DNA of 34,432 nucleotides, from assembly GCA_016195965.1 (NCBI GenBank), contig JACPYR010000050.1, positions 1-34,432 on the forward strand, given 5' to 3'. The notes under the pieces were generated by a model that saw only the letters and a program-made list of their open reading frames with translations, ran no database searches and was not told the DNA's origin. Made by a program: the position numbers and the translations under genes. The stretch comes from Nitrosomonadales bacterium. GTDB taxonomy: Bacteria > Pseudomonadota > Gammaproteobacteria > Burkholderiales > Gallionellaceae. Positions 9,295-17,635 of this stretch are shown here, in pieces; the stretch's first letter is position 1; each line of letters opens with the position of its first letter.

Positions 9295-9329
9295 CCGGAC
9301 ATGACAATCTATCCACAAAAAGGATGACC

Positions 9330-11585
9330 ATGCATAACATGATCAATACATCTATCCTGTCAGAAATGGGCATCGACGCCGATGAGATCACAACACGCCA
9401 GGCGTTCCTGCAATTTACCGGGGCGGATGCCGCGTTACTCAAGGAATTGCACGAACAGCTCACCCTGCAACATGAGGTATTCAGCGAGTCGTTCTATGTG
9501 CATTTGCAACGCTTCCCGGAAATGCTGCCGCTGCTCGGCGACAGCGCCAAGCTGGAGCGGTTGAAGAGCGCCCAGGCCAAATATTTCAGCCAACTGACCG
9601 AAGGCTGCTACGACCAGAGCTATATCGAAAATCGCTTGCATGTCGGGCTGATTCACCAGCGTGTCGGCTTGACACCAAAATGGTATATGAGCGCGTACTG
9701 CAAGTATCTGAGCGACACACTACCGGTGGTTATGCAGCAGCATGACCATCAGGACACAGGCGCGGACAGTCAGAAAAAGCGCTTCGACACCTATCAGGCC
9801 TTGCTGAAAATCATCTTCTTCGACATGGGTCTGGCGCTGGATACCTACTTCCACGCCGAACATCAGGCACTCGCCATGGCACGCGGTTATACGGAGCAAA
9901 TCGTCGCCAATATGCCGATTGGTTTTGTCGTGCTCGACAGCGAACACAAAATTCGTCTGGTCAATAATGCCGTGCTGCGCATGTTCGGAATGGATGCGAA
10001 TAATGCCTGGCAGGGACAGCGACTGCCTGATTTTATTGGCGTTGCAGAGCTGACTGAACAAATAGCACAGGTACTGTGGAGTGGCGACCCATGCAACAAT
10101 TTCGTCTTCGACCGTATCGACCCTCATGGCCTGAAAACCTATCTGGCGGACATTTCCATGGCCCAGATGGCCGGCGAGAGCGTCATCCTGTTCATGGTGC
10201 AGGACATTACCGTGCGCAAACAATCCGAGCGGGAAATTCACCAGTTGGCTTTTTACGACGCGCTGACCAAGCTTCCCAACCGCCGCCTGCTGCACGAACG
10301 CCTGACACAAAGCATGTCTATCAGCGCGCGCAGCGGAAAGCATGGCGCACTGATGCTTTTGGATATCGACAACTTCAAGATGATCAACGACACACATGGG
10401 CATGATATGGGTGACCAGCTATTGCAGGAAGTCGCCAGCCGGCTCACCGGGATCGTGCGCGAAAGCGACACCGTGGCGCGCCTGGGTGGGGACGAATTCA
10501 TTGTGGCGCTCGAATCGTTAAGCACAGATGCCCAAGAAGCCGCTAACCAGGCTGAGTTGGTTGCCGAAAAAATCCGTGCGAAGCTCAACCAGCCGTACCT
10601 GATAAATGGCCATGAACAGCATAACTCCCCCAGTATCGGAGTCAGTCTGTTTTGCGATCATCAAAACAGCATTGAAGAACTCCTCAAAGAGGCGGATCTC
10701 GCCATGTATCAGGCCAAAGCCATGGGACGCAACCAGGTGTGCTTTTTCGAACTGGCGATGAAAGCGAAACTGGCAAACCGCACTGCGCTGGAAAATGATT
10801 TGCGGGCCTCCATCCGCAAAAATCAGCTGGTGCTGTTTTATCAGATGCAGGTCGATCAATCGGCGCATATACACAGTGCGGAAATATTGCTGCGCTGGCA
10901 ACATCCGGAGCGCGGGCTGGTATCACCCGCAGAATTCATCCCGCTCGCGGAAGAAACCGGCATTATTTTGCAGATCGGTTATTGGGTGATAGAGCAAGCC
11001 TGCAGGCAGTTAAAGGCATGGGAAGTTGATCCAAAAATGCGCCACATCAAGCTTGCCGTGAATGTCAGTCCAAAACAGCTGGGCCAACCCAACTTTGTCG
11101 AACAAGTGAAAGAAATCATCAATAAAACCGGCATCGGGACTGCACAATTAAAGCTGGAGTTAACGGAAGGTTTCATCCTGAATGACCTGGAAAGCGCCAT
11201 CAAAAAAATGCTGGAATTGAAAGCGATCGGCATATGCTTCTCGATGGATGATTTCGGCACTGGCTACTCATCGCTGTCTTATCTCAGCCGCTTACCCCTT
11301 GATCAAATAAAAATAGACCAATCCTTCGTGCGCAACATCACTACTGACAAAAACAGCCGGGCAATGGTACGAACCATCATCAGCATAGCCTCTCACTTTG
11401 GCCTGAACATCATTGCCGAAGGCGTCGAAACCGATGCGCAGCTTGCCTACCTGATGCAATACAACTGCAATGCCTTTCAGGGTTACCTGTTTGGCAAACC
11501 GGTCATCCTGCAAGAATTTGAACGGTTGTGCCGCTTACAACAATCAGACTTAAGGGAACAATCCAACAGGCATGAAATTTGCTGA
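9330..11585 (+). CDS. Globin-coupled PAS-GGDEF-EAL cyclic-di-GMP protein
   Basis: 751 residues. The N-terminal globin-coupled sensor domain (about 1-165) has the family signature LHVGLIHQRVGLTPKWYMSA, with the probable proximal heme histidine at His109. A PAS domain (about 195-305) follows. The GGDEF domain keeps the catalytic GGDEF (386-390). The EAL domain carries EIL (518-520) in place of EAL and keeps DDFGTGYSS (640-648). The protein should sense oxygen through heme and make or break cyclic-di-GMP. Whether the EIL variant still hydrolyses it is uncertain. The second ATG (9330) is chosen because AGG lies six bases before it; the first ATG (9324) abuts AAAAAGG directly. The gene follows nifA by 35 bases with no visible promoter or terminator between, and a candidate terminator follows it, so nifL-nifA and this gene probably form one transcript. 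Confidence 0.92.
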   Translation: MHNMINTSILSEMGIDADEITTRQAFLQFTGADAALLKELHEQLTLQHEVFSESFYVHLQRFPEMLPLLGDSAKLERLKSAQAKYFSQLTEGCYDQSYIENRLHVGLIHQRVGLTPKWYMSAYCKYLSDTLPVVMQQHDHQDTGADSQKKRFDTYQALLKIIFFDMGLALDTYFHAEHQALAMARGYTEQIVANMPIGFVVLDSEHKIRLVNNAVLRMFGMDANNAWQGQRLPDFIGVAELTEQIAQVLWSGDPCNNFVFDRIDPHGLKTYLADISMAQMAGESVILFMVQDITVRKQSEREIHQLAFYDALTKLPNRRLLHERLTQSMSISARSGKHGALMLLDIDNFKMINDTHGHDMGDQLLQEVASRLTGIVRESDTVARLGGDEFIVALESLSTDAQEAANQAELVAEKIRAKLNQPYLINGHEQHNSPSIGVSLFCDHQNSIEELLKEADLAMYQAKAMGRNQVCFFELAMKAKLANRTALENDLRASIRKNQLVLFYQMQVDQSAHIHSAEILLRWQHPERGLVSPAEFIPLAEETGIILQIGYWVIEQACRQLKAWEVDPKMRHIKLAVNVSPKQLGQPNFVEQVKEIINKTGIGTAQLKLELTEGFILNDLESAIKKMLELKAIGICFSMDDFGTGYSSLSYLSRLPLDQIKIDQSFVRNITTDKNSRAMVRTIISIASHFGLNIIAEGVETDAQLAYLMQYNCNAFQGYLFGKPVILQEFERLCRLQQSDLREQSNRHEIC

Positions 11586-11626
11586 CTAGCATACAATGTT
11601 GAAAAAACGACACTTCAACCGACAAA

Positions 11627-11655
11627 ATCGGGATGCCTCATCCTCGATATTTTTC
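11627..11655 (+). terminator. Candidate rho-independent terminator after the nifLA operon
   Basis: ATCGGGATG-CCT-CATCCTCGAT can form a nine-pair stem with a one-base bulge and a three-base loop. It is followed by TATTTTTC. It lies 42 bases after the stop of the globin-GGDEF-EAL gene and before the Nif11 gene. The stem is modest, so efficiency is uncertain. Confidence 0.5.
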
Positions 11656-11683
11656 TAATCCTATAAAAACATACGAGACACAC

Positions 11684-11902
11684 ATGGCAATCAAAGACAT
11701 CAAGGCCTTTTCAGACAAGGCCAGAGCAGAACCAGAACTGAAAGCAAAACTCTTCGCCTGCCAAAAGGTGCGTGAACTGCTCACGCTGGCGCGCGATAGC
11801 GGGTTTCAATTTAACGAGGATGAAATGTATCCGCCCAATGAACCGCAATTCACCGCCGAGCAGCTTTCCGAAAGACTCATCAAAGCGCTGCTGCGGGCTT
11901 GA
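11684..11902 (+). CDS. Nif11 family small protein
   Basis: 72 residues. The sequence MAIKDIKAFSDKARAEPELK and the following KVRELLTLARDSGFQF match the Nif11 domain (alpha-helical, about 50 residues), which is found as a stand-alone protein in nitrogen fixation clusters and as a leader region of some peptide natural products. This protein ends 20-odd residues after the domain, with no double-glycine site or core peptide, so it is the stand-alone nif type. Its function is unknown. An upstream in-frame ATG (11633) lies inside the candidate terminator hairpin and is rejected. The ribosome site is weak (CGAGA). The gene is five bases before the next one. Confidence 0.75.
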   Translation: MAIKDIKAFSDKARAEPELKAKLFACQKVRELLTLARDSGFQFNEDEMYPPNEPQFTAEQLSERLIKALLRA

Positions 11903-11907
11903 GTGGC

Positions 11908-12213
11908 ATGACAGCTAGCAGCGAAAACCGGATAACTTGCCGGCTCTTCATAAGCTACACTGGCGTCAAACTGCCCTTCCGGCTAGTAAACCAGTTGGAA
12001 GACAGTGGAGTGGAAAACCGCAATACATTCTTTCGAGGCTATTTCGATGAACAAGATCGTCTCACCGGGTTTGAAAAAATTGCCTATGGCGAGGTAGAAC
12101 TGACACATTGTTATGAATATCACAACAACGGCAAACTCAAACATGCAGAGATCACCGACATCGACGGTGAAGTGACAGTGCTGGGATTCAATGCTGAAAG
12201 TAATACCGGGTGA
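11908..12213 (+). CDS. Small conserved protein of nif region, function unknown
   Basis: 101 residues, soluble, with no signal peptide or membrane segment. It has a compact alternating beta pattern: CRLFISYTGVKLPFRLVNQL, NRNTFFRGYFDEQDRLTGFE, YGEVELTHCYEYHNNGKLKH, AEITDIDGEVTVLGF. I have the impression that similar proteins (a DUF6156-like family) occur beside nif genes in other proteobacteria, but I cannot confirm this here. The repeated DxxGxL/E-type strands suggest a small beta-sheet protein. It starts five bases after the Nif11 gene and overlaps the start of the next gene, so the three are probably co-expressed. A TTG start at 11899 is possible but less likely than the ATG at 11908. Confidence 0.65.
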   Translation: MTASSENRITCRLFISYTGVKLPFRLVNQLEDSGVENRNTFFRGYFDEQDRLTGFEKIAYGEVELTHCYEYHNNGKLKHAEITDIDGEVTVLGFNAESNTG

Positions 12214-12952
12214 AACTGCAACCTGCAACAATGGTTGTCAGCTTGGCACAAAAACGTGCCCACCCGCCTTGGCTGTGGCACCTGTTCACATTGATCAGGA
12301 CAACCACCTGTGGCTGAAATTCTGGCGCGACCAGCGCACCGATTTCCACCTGCCCGCAGTTAATCCGCTGCTCAGCAAATTCTGGTCTAGCCTTAAGCTC
12401 GTTCATGGCAGTCGGGTATTTGTCCCGCTTTGCGGCAAGAGTTTGGACATGATCTGGCTTGCCCAACAAGGCCATGAAGTCATGGGCGTCGAGTTGAGTC
12501 CTGTTGCGGTAGGAGATTTTTTTAGAGAGAACGGCTTGCAACCGGTTCAGCGTAAGGTCGGACAATTCACCTTATGGAACGATGGCAAACTCAGTGTTTT
12601 ATGCGGGGATTACTTCACGCTGACCAAGGCAAACATAGGCCAGTTCGATACCGTCTATGACCGGGCTGCACTGACCGCGTTTCCGGAAAATATTCGCAGC
12701 CTTTATGTCACGCAGTTAAGACGGCTCGTGCCGGATAATGCCCAGATGTTTTTTCTGACCGTCGAGGATGCGGCAGAGGGTACGACCATGAAGCAAGAAA
12801 ATAGTGTGGATGAAGAGATCAAAACACTATATTCGGCGGGATTCGAGATTGACCTGGCTTATGTTGAAAGCGTGTTCGAAGCCGACCCGGAAGAGCCTGA
12901 GTTACCCGCCAGACGTGCCGAATATAAAGTGTACCGGCTTTGCGCAAGGTAG
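12191..12952 (+). CDS. TPMT-family SAM-dependent methyltransferase
   Basis: 253 residues as given. The core matches the thiopurine S-methyltransferase family: WLKFWRDQRTDFHLPAVNPL, then the SAM-binding signature VFVPLCGKSLDMIWLAQQGH followed by EVMGVELSPVAV, then CGDYFTL and YDRAALTAFP. In bacteria such enzymes methylate sulfur, selenium or tellurium compounds or small thiols; the substrate here is unknown. The family is usually about 215-225 residues, and the first 25 or so residues here look non-homologous. A GTG (12275) or TTG (12269) start would give a standard length; the ATG at 12191 overlaps the preceding gene by 23 bases. No direct link to nitrogen fixation is known to me. Confidence 0.8.
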   Translation: MLKVIPGETATCNNGCQLGTKTCPPALAVAPVHIDQDNHLWLKFWRDQRTDFHLPAVNPLLSKFWSSLKLVHGSRVFVPLCGKSLDMIWLAQQGHEVMGVELSPVAVGDFFRENGLQPVQRKVGQFTLWNDGKLSVLCGDYFTLTKANIGQFDTVYDRAALTAFPENIRSLYVTQLRRLVPDNAQMFFLTVEDAAEGTTMKQENSVDEEIKTLYSAGFEIDLAYVESVFEADPEEPELPARRAEYKVYRLCAR

Positions 12953-13017: not shown

Positions 13018-13368
13018 TCAAGGCACCATCGAAAACAACTGCGGTTGTTTTTTCTTGTAGTCATTCAATTTCTGCAATGTCATCGGTGTGAGCTCTTTGA
13101 TCGCGACCCAAATCTGTAACGGGTGCTGTGACGGCTTGGACAGCGCTATTGCCAATGTCGCCCACGCTGCCCAATCTACCTCCGGCATGCGTTCTCGGGC
13201 ACCGGCGGACAGATTGGCGGCGGTTTTTGCCAGGCTGCCCAATAATTGCAAAGTCTGCGCACGGGTCAATCGGCTGGCAAAAAATTCAGCCTCGCTGATC
13301 TCGTCGGTCAAGATCAGGATGTCCAGCCCGATTTGCTCCATCAACCCCAACATCGCACCGGTCAGCAT
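13018..13368 (-). CDS. HEPN/HepT-like helical protein of the nafY operon
   Basis: 116 residues, mostly helical. The run from AEFFASRLTRAQTLQLLGSL through ANLSAGARERMPEVDW to HPLQIWVAIKELTP follows the layout of HEPN (HepT/DUF86) proteins: a helix with a downstream bundle, an RxxxPxxxW-type turn, and a final helix ending before a Leu-Thr-Pro. The catalytic R-X4-6-H of HepT ribonucleases is not evident: the expected arginine aligns with Ala73 and the histidine with Lys78. No MNT nucleotidyltransferase partner is adjacent. The gene starts with AAGGA six bases before the ATG, inside the end of the upstream gene (seven-base overlap), so it is co-translated with the Fe-S oxidoreductase. Family assignment is from pattern only. 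Confidence 0.72.
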   Translation of the reverse strand: MLTGAMLGLMEQIGLDILILTDEISEAEFFASRLTRAQTLQLLGSLAKTAANLSAGARERMPEVDWAAWATLAIALSKPSQHPLQIWVAIKELTPMTLQKLNDYKKKQPQLFSMVP

Positions 13369-14789
13369 GTTTGTTCCTTCGGGATTGCGTCGCGCAACAA
13401 CATGGCAACATGGACGGGTTGGCGATCCACGCCTTCGCGTATCTGGTGGCGGCAGGAAAATCCGTTGGCGAGGATGGTGGCGTCCGGTGCGGCACGCAGC
13501 GCGGGCAACAGTTCCAGTTCGGCCATTTGCATGGAGATGTCGGCGTGTTCGACCTCCAGGCCGAAACTGCCCGCCATGCCGCAACAGCTCGCCTCGATGA
13601 AGTCAAATTCGAATTCGGGAATCAGGCGCAATACTTTGCGCAACGACTTCATCGCACCGACGGCCTTCTGGTGGCAATGTCCATGCACCAGGGTCTTGCT
13701 GCGTGCCAGCGGGCTAAATTCCAGCGTGAAACGTTTGCGGTCGTGCTCTTTGGCGATGAATTCTTCGAACAAATAGACCTGTTTAGCCAACGCCACGGCC
13801 TCCTCGCCCAAGCCCAGTTTCAGATGATCGTCGCGCAACGACAGGATACACGAGGGTTCCAGCCCGACGATCGGGGTACCCGCAGCCAATGCTGGTCGCA
13901 ATGCCGCTTGCATTCTGCGTGCGTCACGCCGTGCCAGCTCTACTTGCCCCAGTGAAAGATAAGTGCGGCCACAGCACAATGCACGCTCCGGCTCATCGCC
14001 TACCAACGCTTGCAAGGTGGTGACGCGGTAACCCGCGGCGGTTAACACCTGGTGTGCGGCTTGCGCGATCTCAGGCTCGAAGTGCAACGCGAAGGTATCG
14101 ACAAACAGGATCACATCTCTATCACTCGCTTCGTTCTGAACACTGTTGTCCGGTACGGCATCTACTCCGTCCATGCTTCGATACACCTTGCTACGCAAGG
14201 CACTCGGCACGAACGGAATGGATGGTGCGCTGTATAGCGCAACAGCGGGTTCCGGCAACTGGCGCTTTGCCGAGATGCCCATGAAATGCTCGCCAAGCTT
14301 CGCCAACCACGGTGTGCGATTGCGCAAGCGTATCAAACTGCGCAATATGCGACGATAACGCAATATGCGCGGCAAGCCAGCCATCAGCCAATCACGAAAC
14401 GATATACCCAGATATGTATTGCGCTGTGCCTGATATTCGATCTTGATGGCGGCCATGTCCACTTGATTGGCACATTCGCGCTTGCAGCCTTTGCAGCCGA
14501 CGCAAAGCTCCATCGCTGCCGCCAGCCTGGGGTCGGCTAACGCATCTCCGCCGAACTCGCCATTCAGTGCAGCTTTGAGCGCCACCACTCTTCCGCCCGG
14601 CGAATGTGCCGCATCATTGGTGACGCGAAAACTGGGACACATCACACCCTTGGGCATACGCTGGCAGAGTTTTTCGCTGATGCACACCGCCACCGCTTTG
14701 GCAAAATCGCCGCCTGTCGCGGGTATCCCGGCATAGGCATCGCCCTGCCCTGCAGTTTCATAGGATGACCAGTCGAGATGGTGTTTCAT
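13362..14789 (-). CDS. CCG-domain Fe-S oxidoreductase (GlpC/HdrD-like), nif-linked
   Basis: 475 residues. The N-terminus carries two ferredoxin-type cysteine groups: Cys36, Cys42 and Cys51 (in MCPSF), and CVGCKGCKRECA at 96-106. Two cysteine-rich CCG motifs follow, at Cys272-Cys273 (LCCGRTYL) and Cys402-Cys403 (SCCGMAGSFG). This is the layout of the Fe-S half of FAD-linked D-lactate or glycolate-type dehydrogenases and of GlpC/HdrD/LutA relatives. No FAD-binding half or GlcD-type partner is present in the operon. The substrate and electron partner are unknown. It overlaps orf91 by four bases (ATGA) and the HEPN-like gene by seven. It is third in an operon whose promoter is sigma-54/NifA type, so it is probably made only under nitrogen-fixing conditions. 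Confidence 0.85.
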   Translation of the reverse strand: MKHHLDWSSYETAGQGDAYAGIPATGGDFAKAVAVCISEKLCQRMPKGVMCPSFRVTNDAAHSPGGRVVALKAALNGEFGGDALADPRLAAAMELCVGCKGCKRECANQVDMAAIKIEYQAQRNTYLGISFRDWLMAGLPRILRYRRILRSLIRLRNRTPWLAKLGEHFMGISAKRQLPEPAVALYSAPSIPFVPSALRSKVYRSMDGVDAVPDNSVQNEASDRDVILFVDTFALHFEPEIAQAAHQVLTAAGYRVTTLQALVGDEPERALCCGRTYLSLGQVELARRDARRMQAALRPALAAGTPIVGLEPSCILSLRDDHLKLGLGEEAVALAKQVYLFEEFIAKEHDRKRFTLEFSPLARSKTLVHGHCHQKAVGAMKSLRKVLRLIPEFEFDFIEASCCGMAGSFGLEVEHADISMQMAELELLPALRAAPDATILANGFSCRHQIREGVDRQPVHVAMLLRDAIPKEQTC

Positions 14790-15061
14790 GCGCGCGAGGT
14801 TAACAGCGCGTCAAGTGCCGAGTACAGCGCCGGGACATGCCCGGCATCCTGTGCGCTAATGCAGCTCAGCGCGTGGGACAACAGCTCGTTGCCCGCGTCG
14901 CTGTCGTTCATTTCATCGGCAAAGCGCAAGATGCTGCTGGCGACCAGATTGGTGATGCGCCGGTTCTCGCCAAATACCTTGGCCGTGCCGATGGCGTTAG
15001 CGATGAGATCGGTGATGGCCTGGTAAGGGTCCGCCTTGGCCTTGGGCTGGGGCTTGCCCAT
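14786..15061 (-). CDS. Small unknown protein (orf91) of the nafY operon
   Basis: 91 residues. I do not recognise a family. The protein starts with a basic, proline-containing tail (MGKPQPKAKADPYQ), then several amphipathic helices (ITDLIANAIGTAKVFGENRR, LVASSILRFADEMN, ELLSHALSCISAQ, VPALYSALDALLTS). There are no metal-binding clusters; one cysteine is present. There is no signal peptide or membrane segment. It is real by context: it begins three bases after the nafY stop, and its TGA overlaps the ATG of the Fe-S oxidoreductase. A helical adaptor or assembly role is only a guess. Confidence 0.75.
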   Translation of the reverse strand: MGKPQPKAKADPYQAITDLIANAIGTAKVFGENRRITNLVASSILRFADEMNDSDAGNELLSHALSCISAQDAGHVPALYSALDALLTSRA

Positions 15062-15064
15062 TCC

Positions 15065-15811
15065 CTACTCTACCGCTTCTGCCGCAGCATAATTTTTAAG
15101 CCGCCGCTCGGCACTGACACCGAGTATTTTCAGCATCCATGGCGGCGGTGAATTCACCATCGCCTGTTGAAACTGCGCGATCACTTCTTCCGCTGTGCCT
15201 CCTTCAGGGCGCTTGATCGGATAGATGTTGGCGCGAATAATTTTCGCTGCGGCAGGCCCGCCGACAGAGACGATGTAAACCACATGACAATCGCCGATGA
15301 TCTGCGCGCGGAACGCATTTTTATCTTCGGCAAAATCCGCCTCCAGAGCCAAACGGATGCCGATCAGGCGACTGTCAATCGCCGATACCTGATAGACCAG
15401 AAAACGCAGGCAAGAGCCAAAGTGTCCGCTCAGGGTCAAGCCGCTGTCGGATGCGATCGCCACGCGCACGGAATCAGGCATGTCGCCTTCGTTGTATGGC
15501 AGCACATCTGGCAGTTTTTCATCCGCCTCCGCATCGCCCCACAAAATACGCACCGCCAGCTTCATCGCTTCCAGCCCGATGCCGATATCCTCGCCGTCTT
15601 CTTCGCCGTCCAAACTGCCCAAACCGGTTTTCAGATCGGTTACGGTGAAGGTACGCAAGATATCGGCATCCAGTTTCTCGCCTAGCCGCTCCTGCAATAC
15701 CTCGATCAATTTTGGCAATGTGGTATTGGGCAGCGCCCGCGCCGCCAGCGCGACCCGCAGTGCGGCTTCCCGTGTGATAAGTTCAGGGGTTATCAGTTCA
15801 GGCTGTTGCAT
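15065..15811 (-). CDS. nafY: NafY-like FeMo-cofactor-binding protein
   Basis: 248 residues in two parts, as in NafY (gamma protein) of Azotobacter. The N-terminal domain (about 1-100) contains ITREAALRVALAARALPNTT and FTVTDLKTGLGSLDGEEDGE, which are hallmarks of NafY. The C-terminal dinitrogenase iron-molybdenum cofactor domain (about 113-225, NifX/NifB-C/NafY superfamily) contains SGHFGSCLRF with His130 at the position of the cofactor-binding histidine. NafY holds FeMo-co and apo-dinitrogenase during maturation in the cytoplasm. The ATG has AAGGAG eight bases before it. A sigma-54 promoter lies at 15868-15882. It leads an operon with three less well understood genes. Confidence 0.9.
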   Translation of the reverse strand: MQQPELITPELITREAALRVALAARALPNTTLPKLIEVLQERLGEKLDADILRTFTVTDLKTGLGSLDGEEDGEDIGIGLEAMKLAVRILWGDAEADEKLPDVLPYNEGDMPDSVRVAIASDSGLTLSGHFGSCLRFLVYQVSAIDSRLIGIRLALEADFAEDKNAFRAQIIGDCHVVYIVSVGGPAAAKIIRANIYPIKRPEGGTAEEVIAQFQQAMVNSPPPWMLKILGVSAERRLKNYAAAEAVE

Positions 15812-15867
15812 GGCGTCATCTCCTTGTGCATGGTTGGCATTACTTTTTCGTATTGCAATTTACAGCA

Positions 15868-15882
15868 GCAATTACAGTGCCA
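15868..15882 (-). promoter_or_regulatory. Sigma-54 promoter of the nafY operon
   Basis: The minus strand reads TGGCACT-GTAA-TTGC. Both elements are perfect at the key GG and GC positions with correct spacing. The transcript would begin near 15856, giving a leader of about 45 bases. Two NifA-type sites (15968-15983 and 16001-16016) lie about 86-134 bases upstream of the -24 element. Confidence 0.88.
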
Positions 15883-15967: not shown

Positions 15968-15983
15968 TGTCGTCTTCACCACA
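15968..15983. promoter_or_regulatory. NifA activator site shared by nafY and nifB (site 1)
   Basis: TGT-CGTCTTCACC-ACA is a perfect TGT-N10-ACA. It is 86 bases from the nafY -24 end and about 96 bases from the nifB -24 element, so it can serve either direction. Confidence 0.78.
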
Positions 15984-16000
15984 AGCGGATATGGATGTCA

Positions 16001-16016
16001 TGTGCTGTTTGTAACA
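16001..16016. promoter_or_regulatory. NifA activator site shared by nafY and nifB (site 2)
   Basis: TGT-GCTGTTTGTA-ACA is a second perfect TGT-N10-ACA, 33 bases from site 1 (about three helical turns, same face). An AT-rich stretch (16028-16072) between it and the nifB promoter could bend, for example by IHF, though I see no strict IHF consensus. Confidence 0.78.
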
Positions 16017-16078: not shown

Positions 16079-16094
16079 GGGCACGCTGCTTGCT
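16079..16094 (+). promoter_or_regulatory. Sigma-54 promoter of nifB operon
   Basis: The sequence is GGGCACG-CTGC-TTGCT, matching TGGCACG-N4-TTGCT with one mismatch at the first base and exact spacing. Transcription should start near 16105, about 25 bases before the nifB GTG. Confidence 0.87.
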
Positions 16095-16129: not shown

Positions 16130-17635
16130 GTGGAACTACCTGTTATCAATAACACTGCATCAGAAGCCACCAAAAGCGGCTGCTCAGCCAGTTCCTGTGG
16201 TTCGACCAACGACCAGATGGGACATCTGCCGGAGCACATCCGCGAGAAGGTGTTCAACCATCCCTGCTATTCGGAAGAAGCGCATCATTACTTCGCGCGT
16301 ATGCATGTGGCGGTGGCGCCCGCCTGCAACATCCAGTGCCATTACTGCAACCGCAAATACGATTGTGCCAACGAATCGCGCCCCGGCGTAGTTTCCGAAC
16401 TGCATCATCCGGAACAAGCCGTGAAAAAAGTGCTGGCCGTTGCCGCCACCATTCCGCAAATGACCGTGCTGGGCATTGCCGGGCCCGGCGATCCATTGGC
16501 GAACCCGGAGCGCACTTTCGCCACGTTCCGCTCGTTGGCAGAACAGGCGCCTGACATCAAGCTGTGCGTGTCCACCAATGGATTGTCTCTGCCCGATCAT
16601 ATCGATGAACTGGCCAAGCACAACATCGACCATGTCACCATCACCATCAACTGTGTCGATCCCGATGTGGGCGCAAAAATCTATCCGTGGATTTTCTGGA
16701 AGAACAAGCGCATCAAGGGTCGTGAAGGTGCAGCCATTCTGATCGAACAGCAGCAGAAGGGTCTGGAGATGCTGGTGGCGCGAGGCATCCTGGTCAAAGT
16801 GAATTCGGTAATGATTCCGGGTGTGAACGATGCGCATCTGGCGGAAGTATCCAGGACCGTCAAAGCCAAGGGTGCATTCCTGCACAACGTGATGCCGCTG
16901 ATTTCCGAAGCCGAACATGGCACGTTCTACGGCATGACTGGCCAGCGCGGCCCGACTCACGATGAATTGCAGAAGCTGCAGGACGAATGCTCCGGCGACA
17001 TGAACATGATGCGCCACTGTCGCCAGTGTCGTGCCGATGCGGTAGGGCTGTTGGGTGAAGATCGCGGCTCCGAGTTCACCATGGACAAGATCGAAGCAAT
17101 GGACATCAACTATCCCGAAGCGATGAAGATGCGCGCCGAGGTACATGCCGCCATCGCCGAAGAATTGGAAAGCAAACGCGTTGCCAAAGAAGCCAAAGTG
17201 CAATTGGTCAGCATCGAAGGCATCAAGGCCAAGCCGGAAACGCGCCCGGTATTGATGGCGATCGCCACCAAGGGCGGCGGCGTCATCAACGAACATTTCG
17301 GCCATGCCAGCGAGTTCCTGATCTACGAGGCTTCATCGGCTGGGGTACGTTTCATCGGCCACCGCAAGACCGTGGCCTATTGCGAAGGCGGCGACACTTG
17401 CGGCGATGGCGAAAGCGCATTGGACAAGAGTTTAAAAGTTCTGGCCGGTTGTGAAGTCGTGTTGTGCAGCAAAATCGGCTTTGAACCATGGGGACCGCTG
17501 GAAGCCGCCGGCATCCAACCCAATGGCGAGCATGCAATGGAAGCAATCGAAGACGCAATATTGGCGGTGTATGAAGAGATGCGCGTCGCGGGCAGACTGG
17601 AAGCGAAGCTGGATGAGCAGCAGAAGGCAGCTTGA
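16130..17635 (+). CDS. nifB: NifB, radical SAM FeMo-cofactor core synthase
   Basis: 501 residues. The radical SAM cluster motif CNIQCHYC (Cys66, Cys70, Cys73) follows the NifB-specific HPCYSEEAHHYFARMHVAVA segment. GIAGPGDPLANPE and the CRQCRADAVGLLGEDR cysteine cluster are also conserved. The C-terminal part (from about residue 375, MAIATKGGGVINEHFGHASE) is a NifX-type cofactor-binding domain, present in many proteobacterial NifB proteins. NifB fuses two 4Fe-4S clusters with a carbide to make NifB-co. The start is GTG at 16130 with GGAGG seven bases upstream; the ATG at 16116 is in another frame. It heads the operon that runs to draG, under sigma-54/NifA control. Confidence 0.97.
   Translation: MELPVINNTASEATKSGCSASSCGSTNDQMGHLPEHIREKVFNHPCYSEEAHHYFARMHVAVAPACNIQCHYCNRKYDCANESRPGVVSELHHPEQAVKKVLAVAATIPQMTVLGIAGPGDPLANPERTFATFRSLAEQAPDIKLCVSTNGLSLPDHIDELAKHNIDHVTITINCVDPDVGAKIYPWIFWKNKRIKGREGAAILIEQQQKGLEMLVARGILVKVNSVMIPGVNDAHLAEVSRTVKAKGAFLHNVMPLISEAEHGTFYGMTGQRGPTHDELQKLQDECSGDMNMMRHCRQCRADAVGLLGEDRGSEFTMDKIEAMDINYPEAMKMRAEVHAAIAEELESKRVAKEAKVQLVSIEGIKAKPETRPVLMAIATKGGGVINEHFGHASEFLIYEASSAGVRFIGHRKTVAYCEGGDTCGDGESALDKSLKVLAGCEVVLCSKIGFEPWGPLEAAGIQPNGEHAMEAIEDAILAVYEEMRVAGRLEAKLDEQQKAA

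Follow-up and report, generated by a model that had tools for sequence, protein, structure and literature searches.

The DNA analysed here (the window) comprises positions 1 to 34,432 of contig JACPYR010000050.1 from a Nitrosomonadales bacterium of the family Gallionellaceae; it is contig C78 of a draft genome of 2.73 Mb that is 82.9% complete. By protein comparison, its nearest named relatives belong to Sideroxydans, Sideroxyarcus and Gallionella. A row of four genes on its minus strand faces the divergently transcribed nifB. The row consists of nafY, a short gene (orf91), a gene encoding a stand-alone CCG-type Fe–S protein (hereafter CCG) and a gene encoding a HEPN-like protein, arranged as follows:

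15065–15811, minus strand: nafY, iron–molybdenum cofactor (FeMo-co) carrier family (PF16844 DIMCO_N, 115.5 bits; PF02579 Nitro_FeMo-Co, 62.8 bits)
14786–15061, minus strand: orf91, 91 amino acids, predicted to be all-helical, no Pfam or NCBIfam family
13362–14789, minus strand: CCG, 475 amino acids, with a 4Fe-4S dicluster part and a CCG part
13018–13368, minus strand: HEPN-like protein, 116 amino acids, with a predicted HepT fold that lacks the HepT active site
16130–17635, plus strand: nifB, divergent neighbour (TIGR01290, 654 bits; cut-off 344)

The compact row described by the first-pass annotation of this DNA is borne out by the coordinates: orf91 begins 3 bases after nafY and overlaps CCG by 4 bases, and CCG overlaps the HEPN-like gene by 7 bases. 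No convincing fold match was obtained for orf91.

The constant part of the row is its distal half. Among 90 genomes of the family, the HEPN-like gene (at least 115 bits) and the CCG orthologue (more than 880 bits) occur in the identical 20 genomes, in each of which they are neighbours on the same strand. The HEPN-like gene was located in 33 genome-contig loci, of which 23 also contain CCG, and the 7-base overlap is retained in 20 of these 23. The divergent nifB lies less than 2 kb away in 28 of the 33; elsewhere, the gene is found by nifLA (L041), by nifX-like and nifQ genes (L044 and L045) or by nifH-like and nifDK-like genes (L046), and locus L029 stops at a contig end. Six loci, five of them named Thiobacillus, have the HEPN-like gene opposite nifB and no CCG.

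The first-pass annotation treated the three downstream genes as partners of nafY. Across loci, the CCG–HEPN-like core is conserved and nafY–orf91 is optional. nafY precedes CCG in five loci only (the window, L020, L026, L140 of genome G050 and L141 of genome G069), with orf91 beside it in all five and the full set of four genes present in G050. In 20 of the 23 loci used for the promoter comparison below, no nafY stands between the promoter and CCG, and partnership with nafY was therefore rejected as the main reading. orf91, present in 5 of the 90 family genomes, was found only next to nafY in the loci examined. Since most CCG–HEPN-like loci lack nafY, the operon is, as judged from gene order, composed of two cassettes, an optional nafY–orf91 and a core CCG–HEPN-like; the former is interpreted as an optional cassette, supplying a FeMo-co carrier under the same promoter. 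The loci bearing nafY fall at three places of the CCG tree, and losses or moves of this cassette therefore seem to have taken place.

Both core genes occur almost exclusively together with nitrogenase genes. The HEPN-like profile matched 31 of 399 Burkholderiales genomes, 22 of them at 84 bits or more, a threshold chosen after the result table had been viewed, and nine weakly (20–43 bits). These nine, as well as six places at 22–32 bits, were set aside as HepT-like, four such matches having been aligned. In the same sample, nifD was above its cut-off in 55 genomes and partial in three. Among the 22 carriers, nifD is above the cut-off in 19, partial in two (G000 and G452) and missing from one, the draft genome G221, which also lacks nifH above the cut-off and whose genus-mate G290 has nifD. 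Thus nifD, partial matches included, accompanies the HEPN-like gene in 21 of 22 carriers and is found in 37 of 377 non-carriers (Fisher p 1e-18, kinship ignored). The stand-alone CCG gene (at least 510 bits) is present in 13 genomes, 12 with nifD above the cut-off and one, G000, with a partial match; this threshold was also chosen after viewing the table, and short frames below it (G239, G255 and G459; 335–442 bits) were excluded. Within the family, 16 of the 20 genomes carrying both genes have nifD above the cut-off. The others are G000, with its partial nifD, G031 and G087, with nifH above the cut-off, and G023 (85% complete), with only a match of about 300 bits to the nifD model. Independence from nif in most genomes, named beforehand as an outcome that would count against a nitrogen-fixation role, is the opposite of what was found. 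The link runs in one direction: the HEPN-like gene is missing from 15 of the 31 family genomes that have nifD and from 37 of the 58 nif genomes in the order sample. In a sample of 398 genomes of the phylum, strong matches came only from G000 and G001, the other 27 scoring about 20–45 bits.

The region between the operon and nifB contains the following elements:

15867–15882, minus strand: sigma-54 -24/-12 site, TGGCACTGTAATTGCT, zero mismatches, the sole such match in the window
15968–15983, no strand: NifA-type upstream site 1, TGT-N10-ACA
16001–16016, no strand: NifA-type upstream site 2, TGT-N10-ACA, 33 bp from site 1
16079–16094, plus strand: sigma-54-like site before nifB, GGGCACGCTGCTTGCT, one mismatch, facing away from the operon

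Within a single 34-kb window, neither motif is rarer than chance: the sigma-54 pattern with up to two mismatches has 27 matches, the same number as in shuffled sequences, and TGT-N10-ACA has 10 against 6.8 expected. The case for the promoter lies in conservation across loci. In the window and all 22 related loci, the 350 bp preceding the operon contain both a sigma-54 site and a NifA-type site; the two are spaced 40–160 bp apart in 21 of the 23 (0.004 expected from dinucleotide shuffles). Paired NifA-type sites 32–33 bp apart are also found in 21 of the 23, L025 and L040 having one site near CCG. NifA induction of the operon is predicted from these motifs. The promoter as first described, one sigma-54 site with two NifA sites, is thus conserved; as a correction, the NifA-type sites are located towards nifB, between the two sigma-54-type sites, and probably serve both transcription units. 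In L014, L025 and L040, where CCG and nifB are 1.2–2.0 kb apart, NifA-type sites are present at both ends, as would be expected if selection keeps the operon under this control. The six loci without CCG have paired NifA-type sites between the HEPN-like gene and nifB; the sigma-54 pattern search found no site there directed towards the HEPN-like gene.

Outside Gallionellaceae, 24 HEPN-like loci were compared; for L084, L085, L091 and L099, the region searched was the one ahead of the gene presumed to open the row, not ahead of the HEPN-like start. Both elements are present in 7 of the 24 (0.003 expected) and a NifA-type site in 15 (1.0 expected); the remaining nine have no NifA-type site, and one of these has a sigma-54 site. 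In L087 and L089, the HEPN-like gene has NifA-type and sigma-54 sites of its own. Genome G146 contains four HEPN-like copies (L096, L097, L101 and L102), of which three lack a preceding NifA-type site; these may have another role.

The HEPN-like protein of the window has no Pfam match when searched alone; its predicted fold is the HEPN fold of HepT toxins, in agreement with the first-pass annotation. As reported in PMC7641770, the motif RX4H(XY) marks an active HepT toxin and its tyrosine accepts adenosine monophosphate (AMP). Two of 64 rows were removed from the active-site alignment, leaving 62: that of the window, which duplicates P0051, and L094, whose slice contained a stop. The arginine–histidine pair is present in none of the 62 members, and the tyrosine column is a gap in 58 rows and tyrosine in none. 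The protein thus resembles the HepT of HepT/MntA systems (PF01934) in fold and differs from it in lacking the RX4-6H site and the AMP-accepting tyrosine, as well as in its nif-type promoter and nif-linked occurrence.

CCG combines a CCG domain (PF02754, 25.9 bits; cut-off 20.6) with a 4Fe-4S dicluster domain (PF13183) that is borderline, scoring 27.0 bits, exactly its cut-off of 27.0. The same layout is found in GlpC and in the C-terminal half of YdiJ, a 2-hydroxyglutarate dehydrogenase linked to flavin adenine dinucleotide (FAD), and GlpC and YdiJ are the top NCBIfam models, both below their cut-offs. CCG differs from these proteins in its nif-linked occurrence and in the lack of an N-terminal FAD-linked oxidase half, no FAD domain being found in the 475-residue frame. 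A tree built from 58 CCG regions has a branch with 100/100 support that separates 41 stand-alone proteins from 17 of YdiJ type, the latter being the top-scoring ones only and not a full survey. All five longer YdiJ-type frames checked carry PF01565 and PF02913, so the description of CCG as a lone half-enzyme is upheld. Counting every match to the CCG profile as nif-linked was rejected: 167 of the 399 genomes match, the five lower-scoring frames checked are FAD-fused, and most of the lower-scoring matches listed lie in frames of about 1000 amino acids or longer (the lowest matches are absent from the list).

The neighbours of the HEPN-like gene vary between lineages. Outside Gallionellaceae, in five loci of five genomes, it is directly followed by a gene for an AAA+ ATPase of about 560–570 amino acids, with a 4-base overlap in L083, L086 and L088 and an 8-base gap in L092 and L094. 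After the AAA+ gene, a protein of about 97 amino acids is encoded in all five loci and a GST in four. In L086, L092, L095 and L045, the HEPN-like gene stands behind nifX, ferredoxin and nifQ, and in three loci it comes after modE. G466 possesses two HEPN-like copies, each with a CCG gene beside it. Near nifHDK in Gallionellaceae, a second CCG type stands behind GST, the two overlapping by 4 bases in L047 and L051; in G125 (L136), this type has an AAA+ gene beside it on the opposite strand. Compared across 33 loci, CCG, GST, the AAA+ ATPase and the ~97-residue protein each recur in at least three families, and together they resemble a single set of nif accessory genes that has been reshuffled.

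The first-pass annotation recorded the arrangement correctly, and its interpretation is supported in part. We read the locus as a nif accessory module, and its most widespread member is a predicted HepT fold that has been disarmed. The most far-reaching reading, to which we assign a probability of roughly 40%, is that, in Burkholderiales, a toxin of the HepT type lost its activity and was domesticated as a NifA-controlled adaptor with swappable effectors, either the nif-only CCG or the AAA+ ATPase, in a previously undescribed system for the maintenance of nitrogenase or its cofactor assembly. An adaptor role is suggested by the constancy of the HEPN-like protein while its neighbour varies (CCG, the AAA+ ATPase or none). 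The 7-base overlap and constant adjacency point to a complex of CCG with the HEPN-like protein, and the recurrence of nifB, nifQ, nifX, nafY and modE as neighbours places the likely clients in cofactor assembly. In the explanation that we prefer, held slightly more tentatively, the two proteins of the window would be a maintenance pair dedicated to nitrogen fixation: the HepT fold would dock a client belonging to nitrogenase or its assembly, and CCG would perform thiol or electron chemistry, reducing a thiol or cluster on the docked client. In other lineages, the AAA+ ATPase would remodel the client. If this is true, many Burkholderiales fix nitrogen with an extra layer of accessory proteins outside the standard nif list, partly based on a toxin fold, and the HEPN-like and stand-alone CCG genes offer two markers for tracking further genes of the nif regulon.

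A literature search covering titles and the openings of abstracts, mostly without subscription journals, retrieved no paper describing HEPN-like or CCG proteins encoded in nif clusters, and absence is not proven by it. The sections of PMC3770913 describing the nif clusters of Sideroxydans ES-1 mention no HEPN or CCG gene. In the NifA regulon of Azoarcus BH72, as presented in PMC3916325, azo3791, a ‘conserved hypothetical ATPase’, is among eight genes that possess RpoN as well as NifA sites; it can be set beside the AAA+ gene linked to the HEPN-like gene by description only. A text search of that paper gave no occurrence of the word HEPN.

Among other explanations, CCG might be an electron-transfer subunit connecting a separate flavoprotein to the quinone pool or to an Rnf/ferredoxin path to nitrogenase, with the HEPN-like protein only stabilising it. 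CCG is related to GlpC and YdiJ, the Fe–S parts of flavin dehydrogenases, rnf genes lie in the same window, and a flavin amine-oxidase-like gene recurs near the HEPN-like or CCG gene in five loci of four families (PF01593 Amino_oxidase in all three checked); its product is a candidate for the flavin partner that CCG lacks. We nevertheless regard this as somewhat unlikely: the window operon has no flavoprotein gene and faces nifB rather than rnf, and the loci in which the HEPN-like gene stands alone have no CCG.

Less likely still is that the HEPN-like protein traffics the cofactor or molybdenum, in a role like that of NafY or NifX with another fold, and that CCG keeps the carried cluster reduced. 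Such a role would suit the neighbourhoods, where nifB, nafY, nifX, nifQ, modE and a modC-like gene appear in several loci. The protein itself offers no obvious metal ligands, as no cysteine column is conserved in alignment A6 and the majority of distant members have not retained the window protein's His82; moreover, BLAST recognised no nif gene in the 18–19-kb stretches around the HEPN-like genes of L087 and L089 (within about 9 kb).

A single assembly module of all four genes centred on NafY, as first suggested, would explain their close packing behind one promoter and the presence of orf91 beside nafY wherever the latter precedes CCG. The absence of nafY in front of most CCG–HEPN-like pairs makes it improbable. 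The DIMCO_N and Nitro_FeMo-Co domains of NafY/NifX carriers are found in the nafY product only, and CCG and the HEPN-like protein show no NafY/NifX domain.

A toxin or anti-phage protein merely parked in the nif region, a notion encouraged by kinship with HepT, by SIR2-like genes close by in some loci and by the weak match of the AAA+ neighbour to IetA-type defence ATPases (51 bits; NCBIfam IteA, 40 bits), is very improbable and was rejected, given the loss of the active-site pair from every aligned member, the nif-type promoters, the lack of an MNT (MntA) domain among the window neighbours scanned (related loci were listed for recurrent neighbours only, with no MNT search there) and PADLOC results in which two HEPN-like members, orf91, CCG, one SIR2-like protein and one ~97-residue protein had no match and only the AAA+ ATPase of L083 matched, weakly.

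Several accessory genes were noted alongside. The AAA+ ATPases (L083, 9705–11423; L086, 9565–11262) are weakly similar to IetA/IteA-type and proteasome-activating ATPases. Proteins of about 97–99 amino acids are encoded in nine loci near HEPN-like genes (for example, L083, 11444–11737, and L045, 10381–10680); the members scanned have no Pfam, NCBIfam or PADLOC match. Flavin amine-oxidase-like genes are located in L088 (12032–13612), L090 (3230–4824), L093 (3708–4817), L096 (6874–8577) and L135 (7812–9407). A SIR2-like gene adjoins the HEPN-like gene in L046 (894–1781, Pfam), L084 (6208–7044) and L085 (7491–8327), the last two by similarity to L046. GST with the second stand-alone CCG occupies L047 (4126–6131), L049 (8912–11170) and L051 (5815–7967); nearby genes in L047 include SIR2-like and hemerythrin-like ones.

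The remainder of the window contains nifL (627 bits) and nifA (687 bits), rnf genes, an ArsC-like nifO, a flavodiiron protein, ferredoxins, nifQ, a draG-like gene and urease genes. At 9324–12952, a gene for a protoglobin-PAS-GGDEF-EAL protein lies directly 3′ of nifA and is followed by Nif11, DUF6156 and TPMT genes; a DUF6156 gene also adjoins the stand-alone CCG gene in L135.

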